Positions 41,077 to 57,396 of a stretch of DNA of 64,000 bases are shown one piece after another. Each line of letters opens with the position of its first letter. The first letter of the stretch is position 1. The notes beneath the pieces were generated by a model. The model worked only from the letters and a program-made list of their open reading frames with translations, searched no databases and was not told the origin of the DNA. This DNA comes from Hydrogenispora sp. (GTDB taxonomy: Bacteria; Bacillota; UBA4882; UBA10575): contig DUQQ01000083.1 of NCBI GenBank assembly GCA_012837705.1, positions 1 to 64,000 on the forward strand, in the 5' to 3' direction. Position numbers and translations under genes: made by a program.

Positions 41077-41427
41077 GGGGGCGACTGGTTTCGACGGGGA
41101 GTATGATGACAGGGGTAGCGGGTCGAGGTGCTGTGGCCTCGTTAAACTGCAGCAAGCACATTAAGTGCCGATAACAATTTAGCTTTAGCTGCTTAATTAA
41201 AAGTAGCCGTCCAATCCGGATTTAACCTGGGAGTCTGGTGCGGGCGTCGCTTAAACCAGGTTGCTCACCGGCCAATTCTCGGAGGCAGGTGCTAAGATCA
41301 TCGAGATAGCCTAAGTCCAGTTTGTCCGTAGACGGGATCACGGTGAAAACTAAAGTACGGACTGCACCCGGAGAGACTCCTGTGGTCATCTTTTCGGACG
41401 GGGGTTCGATTCCCCCCGCCTCCACCA
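41077..41427 (+). ncRNA. ssrA: tmRNA
   Basis: 5' GGGGGCGACTGGTTTCGACGGGG, 3' GGGGGTTCGATTCCCCCCGCCTCCACCA; tag ORF gcaagcacattaagtgccgataacaatttagctttagctgcttaa ending DNNLALAA; directly after smpB. Confidence 0.97.
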
Positions 41428-41569
41428 TAAAATCCACAAGTGCGACTATCTAGGCTACTAGAGAAAGAGTCTACTAGCGAAAAAGTAATATTACCACCAA
41501 CAGGTCATACATATTAACCAGTAGGCTGCGCTCGCAACTAACCGTAGGAAAGGAGACGTTGTGCGGATG

Positions 41570-41758
41570 AACCATAAAATATCTTCGGCGATCGGAGAAA
41601 TGTTAGAAGCCCAGGGCTCCTCCCTGACGGCAGCGGAAGCCATTGCTAAACTAAAAGGAAGTTTTTCCGATGCAGAGTTGGAGGAGTTTTATAAAGCATT
41701 GAATTTTGGCAATCTAGAGCAAGCTGTGGAAGCGCTAATAAAAGACATAAAAGGATAA
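41570..41758 (+). CDS. Small conserved-looking hypothetical protein
   Basis: About 62 aa MNHKISSAIGEMLEAQGSSLTAAEAIAKLKGSFSDAELEEFYKALNFGNLEQAVEALIKDIKG; RBS upstream and a strong terminator directly after the stop. Confidence 0.65.
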   Translation, partial: NHKISSAIGEMLEAQGSSLTAAEAIAKLKGSFSDAELEEFYKALNFGNLEQAVEALIKDIKG

Positions 41759-41780: not shown

Positions 41781-41825
41781 ACCCTTTTGTTGCTTACGGG
41801 CAAAATGAAGTTAACTGTTTTTTGC

Positions 41826-42019
41826 TATAATAAATGCAGACAAACAAACAACCTTTTTTCATTTTCCTCCTTTTTATTTAGATGGGGTTTGTCCACATAA
41901 CCCGCACTTGCCGAGTAAGCGGGGGCATAAACCCGCTGATGATGTGGAACTTTTACCTTTGCGAAGGCCTTAGGCTCTAAGGCCGGAAAACAAGAAGCGC
42001 CAACGGCGCTTTTTTTTTA
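41826..42019 (+). ncRNA. Candidate stand-alone structured RNA of unknown class (promoter to terminator)
   Basis: Extended -10 TGCTATAAT (TATAAT 41826-41831); multiple nested helices; terminator AGCGCC AAC GGCGCT T9 at 41996-42019; no same-strand ORF downstream. Confidence 0.55.
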
Positions 42020-42025
42020 TGGACT

Positions 42026-42109
42026 GGGAACAATTAAGGAGGAAGAACGTTTTATATGATATCACCTCCTTTTATATATTCCTGTTCCCCTCGGTGAGGG
42101 GATTTTTTT
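42026..42109 (+). other. Structured intergenic element with terminator and anti-SD sequence
   Basis: GGGAACA(42026)/TGTTCCC(42083) and AAGGAGG(42036)/CCTCCTT(42065) nested stems; CCCCTC GGT GAGGGG T7 terminator at 42087-42109. Confidence 0.6.
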
Positions 42110-55227: not shown

Positions 55228-55563
55228 ATGAAAAAGTGGTTATGTGGCGTTTGCGGGTACATCCATGATGGGGAGCAAGCACCCGAAGCTTGCCCGAAAT
55301 GTGGGGCACCGATGGAGAAGTTTAGCGAGATTCCAGCCGAAAAAAGTGCCCTGATCGACCGATCCCGGAAGACCAACCAGATTTATATGGAGATCTCGGC
55401 CTTGCTGGAGCAGGTTAGAGAGCTCTCCGAGATTGGCCGGGACGATGATTTGGATCCGCCCTGTGTTGCCCTTTTCAAAAAAGCCATCGTCTATTCGGTT
55501 GAACTGCAACAAGGGATCAAAGCGGAGCTGGCTTCGCATATGGGGAAAGGAAAATGGGGTTAA
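55228..55563 (+). CDS. Rubredoxin-like domain protein with helical C-terminus
   Basis: WLCGVCGYIHDGEQAPEACPKCGAPMEKF; AAGGAGG RBS. Confidence 0.88.
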   Translation: MKKWLCGVCGYIHDGEQAPEACPKCGAPMEKFSEIPAEKSALIDRSRKTNQIYMEISALLEQVRELSEIGRDDDLDPPCVALFKKAIVYSVELQQGIKAELASHMGKGKWG

Positions 55564-56984: not shown

Positions 56985-57383
56985 CCAACCGAACCGGGTA
57001 ACCGCGGGCGCAAGGCCGTAAGGCTGCGCCTGAGGAAAGTCCGAGCTCCAGAGGGCAGGGTGCTGGATAACGTCCAGTGAGGGTGACCTCAAGGAAAGTG
57101 CCACAGAAAAGGAAACGCCGACTGGGGCAGCAATGCTGGTCCAAGGGCAAAGCTGAAAAGGTGCGGTAAGAGCGCACCAGCGGTTAAGTGATTAACCGGC
57201 TTGGTAAACCCCACCTGGAGCAAGACCGAATAGGAGGGGGCGTCGCTTCGTCAGACGCAAGAATGGCCCGTTCTACCCTCGGGTACGGTCGCATGAGGCG
57301 GCAGGTAACTGTCGTCCCAGATAAATGGTTACCGCCGACTGCCGTGCGTGGTCGGTACAGAACTCGGCTTACAGGTCGGTTGG
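56985..57383 (+). ncRNA. rnpB: RNase P RNA, class A-like
   Basis: GAGGAAAGTCCGAGCTCC, CAGGGTGCTGGATAACGTCCAG, GTAAACCCCACCTGGAGCAAGACCGAATAGG, terminal CCAACCGA/TCGGTTGG pairing with ACAGAACTCGGCTTACAGG. Confidence 0.96.
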
Positions 57384-57396
57384 GAACAGTAGAAAA

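Follow-up and report, generated by a model that had tools for sequence, protein, structure and literature searches.

The locus

The window analysed is a stretch of 64,000 nucleotides of Hydrogenispora sp. A tmRNA gene (41077-41427, found by an Rfam scan of the window) is followed on the same strand by an open reading frame (ORF) of 65 amino acids with its own terminator and by a small RNA gene, here called RNA1. The ORF, located at 41561-41758 (+) between tmRNA and RNA1, is conserved in the genus with a DNA identity of 81%. Between the RNA1 terminator and the chrA-like genes that lie downstream on the opposite strand, a second short element, RNA2, was recognized (Table 1). The earlier statement that no ORF follows on the RNA1 strand up to 46.6 kb holds, the next genes being the chrA-like ones on the other strand. 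Elsewhere in the window, an RNase P RNA of class A (Rfam RF00010) is located at 56985-57387 (+).

The extended -10 sequence, the strong terminator and the 3' hairpin that had been proposed for RNA1 are all present in the sequence, and the ends of the predicted transcript were placed from the -10 sequence and the T-run. The promoter has no good -35 hexamer; the TGnTAnnnT pattern is kept in nearly all homologues for which upstream sequence is available. The variable hairpin 3' of the core has, in one relative (G008), the sequence GGTGGGAATCGAACCCACA, which is the antisense of a tRNA T-arm.

Table 1. Features of RNA1 and RNA2 in the window
Feature	Positions	Strand	Remarks
RNA1 promoter	41800-41831	+	Conserved block GCAAAATGAAGTTAAC at 41800-41815 and extended -10 TGC-TATAAT at 41823-41831
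RNA1 predicted transcript	41838-42018	+	About 180 nt
Genus-specific 5' extension GACAAACAAA	41839-41848	+	Absent outside genus g1
Conserved unpaired tract CAACCTTTTTTCATTTTCCTCCTT	41849-41872	+	Reverse complement of start regions with SD, AUG and Lys-Lys codons
Stem A, 5' strand	41881-41886	+	Partner strand at 41901-41906; the window has 4 pairs, several relatives have 6
Stem B, 5' strand CCACAT	41893-41898	+	Pairs with 41942-41947; sits in the loop of stem A
Stem A, 3' strand	41901-41906	+	Pairs with 41881-41886; covariation counts
S1, 5' strand TGCC	41909-41912	+	Pairs with 41924-41927; three inner pairs invariant
Loop GAGTAA	41913-41918	+	Nearly invariant, relatives having KAGTAA; its last base, A41918, is in addition paired with T41937 as part of S2
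S2, 5' strand A-GCGGG	41918-41923	+	Pairs with 41932-41937; H-type pseudoknot with S1
S1, 3' strand GGCA	41924-41927	+	Pairs with 41909-41912
S2, 3' strand CCCGC-T	41932-41937	+	Pairs with 41918-41923
Stem B, 3' strand ATGTGG	41942-41947	+	Pairs with 41893-41898; covariation counts
RNA1 3' hairpin GGCCTTAG-GCT-CTAAGGCC	41966-41984	+	Size and sequence differ among genera; hairpin usually retained
RNA1 intrinsic terminator AGCGCC-AAC-GGCGCT-T9	41996-42018	+	Window sequence; the other homologues read also have terminators 3' of the core
RNA2 promoter, ECF-sigma-like	42027-42051	+	GGAAC at 42027-42031, N16, CGTT at 42048-42051
RNA2 predicted transcript	42057-42109	+	About 50 nt; 5' TATCACCTCCTTTT, terminator hairpin at 42086-42102, T-run

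Distribution of RNA1

Using blastn against related genomes, RNA1 was detected in all eight members of the genus and in most other genera of the family, and a shorter core was found in another family of the class. A covariance model (R1) built from 16 cores was used for searches of the class and the phylum. The core of about 67 nt (41881-41947) is present as a single copy in each of 16 of the 29 class genomes (E values of 1e-14 to 1e-21), in 13 of 16 genomes of family f1, where it is absent only from genus g3, and in 3 of 10 of family f5. This homologue search, which the original prediction had proposed as a check, places the conservation of RNA1 above chance. Within the genus, the core is 92% identical and the tract 94%, the linker between them 60% and the 65-amino acid ORF 81%.

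In most f1 genomes RNA1 is located a short way downstream of tmRNA. In f5 it has G5/YabE-like or similar genes upstream and a convergent protease-like gene downstream (names according to our reading of the translations). RNA1 was previously uncatalogued. Because the neighbours differ between the two families, it is, as judged from sequence comparison, an independent gene that most likely acts in trans and not in cis. The conserved plus-strand promoter and terminators, the lack of an Rfam match and the changing neighbourhood bear out the stand-alone structured RNA that had been postulated.

No further credible R1 match was obtained in 398 genomes across the phylum, apart from one in G320, and a scan of GTDB contigs returned RNA1 from metagenome-assembled genomes (MAGs) of Bacillota only. 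The G320 sequence (C6:98181-98241, minus strand; L049/L065) belongs to another class and, at an E value of 2.4e-5, is a possible remote homologue. Its B, S1 and S2 helices are preserved but built from other bases (GGC-GGTAA-GCC-T-GCC-AAGT-GGC-TGACGATGTGG), S1 being reversed to GGC/GCC; stem A is weak, the anti-Shine-Dalgarno (anti-SD) tract is absent and the context is different. Two other remote matches in the phylum (G405 and G099) look like chance. A viral, phage or plasmid origin was rejected, as no real match was present in those collections; seven viral matches to a relaxed pattern, all GCTGAAGATG, are due to chance. Downstream of tmRNA in G009, G015 and G016 no related RNA was seen, and a literature search for the RNA1 motif yielded nothing specific.

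Two interlocked pseudoknots in the core

Comparison of the homologous cores supports a fold of two interlocked pseudoknots, one formed by stems A and B, the other by S1 and S2. A and B form a pseudoknot because the 5' strand of stem B lies in the loop of stem A; the S1/S2 pseudoknot is enclosed by stem B. Standard pairs occupy 94% of the cells, as against 35-46% for a slid structure, and 26 double-change cells were counted as against 8.8 in shuffled alignments (0 of 500), with covariation in stems A, B and S2. In stem A, four of the six pairs have changes on both sides; stem B is paired in 100% of the cells, with two pairs changed on both sides, and S2 in 99%, with a change from G-C to A-U at 41922/41933 in four sequences. 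Such pair changes arose in more than one lineage: those at 41922/41933 are seen within g2 (G013 versus G008), in g6 and between g10 and g16, those at 41895/41945 in G010, G011 and G027. RNAalifold, in which pseudoknots cannot be drawn, selects A and S2 unaided. A plain minimum-free-energy fold misses the pseudoknots, and the z-score of the core is only -0.5. In the G010 homologue (L015/L046), stem A and S1 are separated by a large additional insertion, which probably forms further helices; extra insertions are common in structured RNAs.

A covariation check of the suggested helices, made by eye and by counting pairs, spoke for stem B and for a pseudoknot of the S1/S2 type, and against two other pairings. 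The proposed helices CCACAT/ATGTGG (41893-98/41942-47), which covaries as stem B, and TGCC/GGCA (41909-12/41924-27), now S1, are both present. The H-type pseudoknot of the original prediction also exists, but its partner for GCGGG41919 is CCCGC41932 and not CCCGC41901. The sequence CCCGC41932, which had been thought to compete for GCGGG, does pair with it and is the actual S2 partner, as the change from G-C to A-U in four sequences indicates; covariation between CCCGC41901 and GCGGG41919 does not go beyond that in shuffles (186 of 500 equal it, and column pair 24/83 is broken in 8 of 16 sequences). Of the 16 sequences, only 3 keep the helix GACAAAC/GTTTGTC, drawn earlier within RNA1, intact; one-sided changes disrupt it in further congeners, and outside the genus it is lacking. 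The second pseudoknot, stem A across stem B, was absent from the earlier drawing.

The anti-start tract and its predicted targets

The first 35 nt or so of RNA1 are predicted to be unpaired, and a generic translation start of the form 'GGAGG...AUG-AAA-AAA' is complementary to them. The tract alone folds to 0 kcal/mol, i.e., it is predicted to be unstructured, and its complement reads GGAGG-AAA-AUG-AAA-AAA-GG. Among members of the genus, its segment CAACCUUUUUUCAUUUUCCUCC has an identity of 94% and is thus as conserved as the core, and CCTCC or a close C/U-rich variant is kept in all homologues that cover the tract; in family f5 the CAU complement is lost and the C/U-rich part alone is kept. 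A looped-out anti-SD tract had been proposed: the CCUCC tract is there, but because GACAAAC/GTTTGTC is broken or missing in relatives, it is to be seen as plain single-stranded 5' sequence rather than as a loop. The 5' extension together with C41849 complements GTTTGTTTGTC, which corresponds to codons 5-8 of the mRNA of a TAXI-type TRAP solute-binding protein.

When the RNA1 region was compared by blastn with its own genome, one other place was found, the start of this TAXI-type gene, the product of which was assigned from sequence. Targets were ranked among 724 gene starts, drawn from stretches that add up to 0.82 Mb of the 2.4-Mb genome. The TAXI gene ranked second (mean of all starts -16.1, sd 4.7 kcal/mol), with a predicted duplex of -35.5 kcal/mol that covers the SD sequence, the AUG and codons 5-8. 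None of the 40 shuffled tracts had a best target as strong as that of the real tract. Genes with a signal peptide-like start make up 9 of the top 20 targets, against an average of 2.5 (maximum 4) for shuffled tracts, an enrichment that comes partly from the likeness of the tract to the complement of any AUG-AAA-AAA start. Nucleotidase-like, ABC sugar-binding and S-layer-like proteins, so named by our reading, are among the top seven. The target prediction with the CCUCC tract that the original prediction had called for thus gave a complementarity to gene starts above the background of shuffled tracts; combined with the conserved, unpaired anti-SD tract, this is consistent with the probable action on ribosome-binding sites foreseen there. 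A rubredoxin-like gene in the window (55228-55563, +) has a start that ranks fourth as a predicted target (-32.1 kcal/mol).

The TAXI orthologues are predicted to pair with the RNA1 of their own genome at -28.5 to -35.7 kcal/mol in five other congeners and at -24.7 kcal/mol in G008. Upon synonymous recoding of the first codons, equal or better pairing was obtained in 0.8-5% of the trials in five of six congeners; in G003 the pairing is no better than that of synonymous recodings. The RNA and target sequences GACAAAC/GTTTGTC of G000 and G005 read CACAAAC/GTTTGTG in G006 and G007. The change in the target yields a synonymous codon, and the pair is preserved with the change in the RNA; the compensatory change shared by G006 and G007 may be a single event. 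In two congeners that have RNA1 (G001 and G004) no close TAXI orthologue was found, and the genomes do not share any long complementary target (at most 3 mismatches within 22 nt). Taken together, the mRNA of the TAXI-type solute-binding protein is the best-supported candidate target on the basis of these sequence comparisons.

RNA2

The RNA2 block is conserved in nine genomes of three genera and occurs within the class only next to RNA1, which it always adjoins; a scan of the phylum gave one other match, which is probably due to chance. It consists of GGGAAC-N16-CGTT, 8 nt and TATCACCUCCUUUU, replaced by TAACACC in G008, and closes with a terminator hairpin preceded by an AT-rich stretch. The promoter spacer is 16 nt long in all nine genomes and variable in sequence; a constant spacer length with a variable spacer sequence is a property of ECF-sigma promoters. 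By chance, 0 occurrences of the promoter pattern are expected in the window. Apart from the terminator, the predicted transcript is unpaired. Its 5' end, TATCACCTCCTTTT, is identical to the usual 3' tail of 16S rRNA, the comparison having been made with the general sequence of this tail. RNA2 may be a second anti-SD RNA.

The pattern GGAAC-N16/17-CGTT is also present in front of two signal peptidase-like genes and an hpf-like gene of the same genome (L170 13581, L187 8162 and L159 1305). An ECF regulon is not claimed, as the 12 intergenic ECF-like sites in the 0.82-Mb sample are near our chance expectation.

Comparison with known RNAs

Scanning 41826-42019 with the covariance models of Rfam 15 gave no family at or above its gathering threshold, even with permissive filters, in agreement with the earlier view that the class is not a known one. 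The best sub-threshold matches, STnc40 (25.8 bits; cut-off 45) and sraL (20.9 bits; cut-off 39), are both driven by the terminator. No match to the RsaE/RoxS or FsrA families of Rfam was seen at E values up to 10.

RoxS and FsrA are stand-alone small RNAs (sRNAs) of Firmicutes in which C-rich single-stranded segments pair with Shine-Dalgarno regions (PMC8216469). RNA1 shares with RoxS/RsaE, FsrA and CsfG the stand-alone organization and a C-rich unpaired segment complementary to the SD sequence, but its own tract is rich in U and C, sits at the 5' end and spans both SD and AUG. To our knowledge, its double-pseudoknot core has no counterpart in these RNAs. In GcvB, as in AbcR-type sRNAs, one unpaired segment hits the start regions of many mRNAs for solute-binding proteins of transporters. 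This resembles the mechanism proposed for RNA1, of which the targets are predicted only, but GcvB is unrelated to RNA1 in sequence and structure, and its segment is G/U-rich and Hfq-dependent. In RNAIII of Staphylococcus aureus, C-rich unpaired stretches pair with ribosome-binding sites; RNA1 has such a stretch too, but RNAIII is about 510 nt long, uses hairpin loops and encodes a peptide, all of which sets it apart from RNA1. With small riboswitches of the H-type pseudoknot kind, such as preQ1, SAM-II and fluoride, RNA1 has in common a compact pseudoknot architecture and invariant unpaired bases; unlike these, it lacks a downstream gene and an Rfam match, its two pseudoknots are interlocked, and a putative trans-acting tract is attached.

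Proposed function and alternatives

We lean towards RNA1 being a trans-acting sRNA that would block ribosome binding on mRNAs of exported proteins, those of solute-binding proteins foremost. Its unpaired 5' segment would pair with the SD sequence, the start codon and the first codons of such mRNAs, and this pairing would prevent binding of the 30S subunit; the genus-specific 5' GACAAACAAAC would extend the duplex with the TAXI mRNA. The pseudoknot core could act as a stabilizer or protein-docking platform, or possibly as an aptamer, which is the least certain step. We infer pairing with mRNA starts and ribosome blocking by analogy with RoxS, FsrA and GcvB.

If the core instead bound a protein, with the tract as a binding site or spacer and not as a pairing seed, the wider conservation of the core than of any predicted target and the different tract of family f5 would be understandable. 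This scaffold function is a minor possibility, as the tract is more complementary to start regions than shuffled tracts are, and RNA and target covary within the genus. A ligand-sensing sRNA or trans-acting riboswitch, in keeping with the orphan ligand-binding RNA of the original prediction, in which the ligand of a double-pseudoknot aptamer controls the availability of the tract or the stability of the RNA, would suit the many invariant unpaired bases of the core (KAGTAA, AUAAC, UGAYG) and the compact interlocked pseudoknots, which are frequent in small-molecule aptamers. It is considered unlikely, and a little more so than the scaffold, with no associated gene pointing to a ligand, neighbours that differ and no conserved alternative pairing between core and tract. 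A classical riboswitch arrangement, with the aptamer ahead of the gene that it regulates and both on one strand, is not seen either: in both families RNA1 is followed by a terminator and then by convergent genes. Still less probable is a two-gene anti-Shine-Dalgarno cassette in which the aptamer of RNA1, as a trans-acting riboswitch, would gate the anti-start tract, with exported proteins as its targets, while the ECF-sigma-driven RNA2, as a 16S-tail copy of about 50 nt, would compete during envelope stress for the SD sequences that ribosomes bind.

Read on the minus strand, the region could be the structured leader of a tiny ORF that has a perfect SD sequence (AGGAGGAAAATGAAAAAAGG...), and SD and ATG are indeed present in all f1 homologues read. 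The predicted peptides have only 8 to 27 residues, however, with shifts of frame (MKKGCLFV/MEKVVC), GGAGG is just 3 nt away from the ATG, SD-ATG is absent from the three f5 homologues (G026 has a chance TTG only), and promoter and T-runs are on the plus strand, which makes this very improbable. Hardly conceivable is a diverged housekeeping RNA (6S RNA, tmRNA, SRP RNA or RNase P RNA) or small ribozyme, despite the fitting size and stand-alone organization and the likeness of the core CUGANGA to part of the hammerhead core. The window has its tmRNA and RNase P RNA at other places, RF00023 (tmRNA) scoring only 8.3 bits at RNA1; 6S RNA (RF00013) does not match RNA1, and its genes are found elsewhere in all 11 genomes tested, including that of RNA1. 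No such family reaches its gathering score, no Rfam ribozyme family appears, and next to CUGAYGA the GAAA partner of the hammerhead is missing, AAC being present in its place.

Significance

RNA1 is new as an RNA family, and its proposed mechanism resembles that of known SD-targeting sRNAs. It adds a conserved family with an unusual double-pseudoknot core to the uncultured anaerobic Bacillota, which are represented here by MAGs only and the small RNAs of which are little catalogued. With the TAXI mRNA, it offers a concrete candidate RNA-target pair in which a compensatory change between species is seen. RNA1 probably switches off the translation of secreted nutrient-binding proteins in these bacteria. 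RNA2, a putative mimic of the 16S tail with an ECF-type promoter, would, if true, represent a simple way of competing with ribosomes for start sites.
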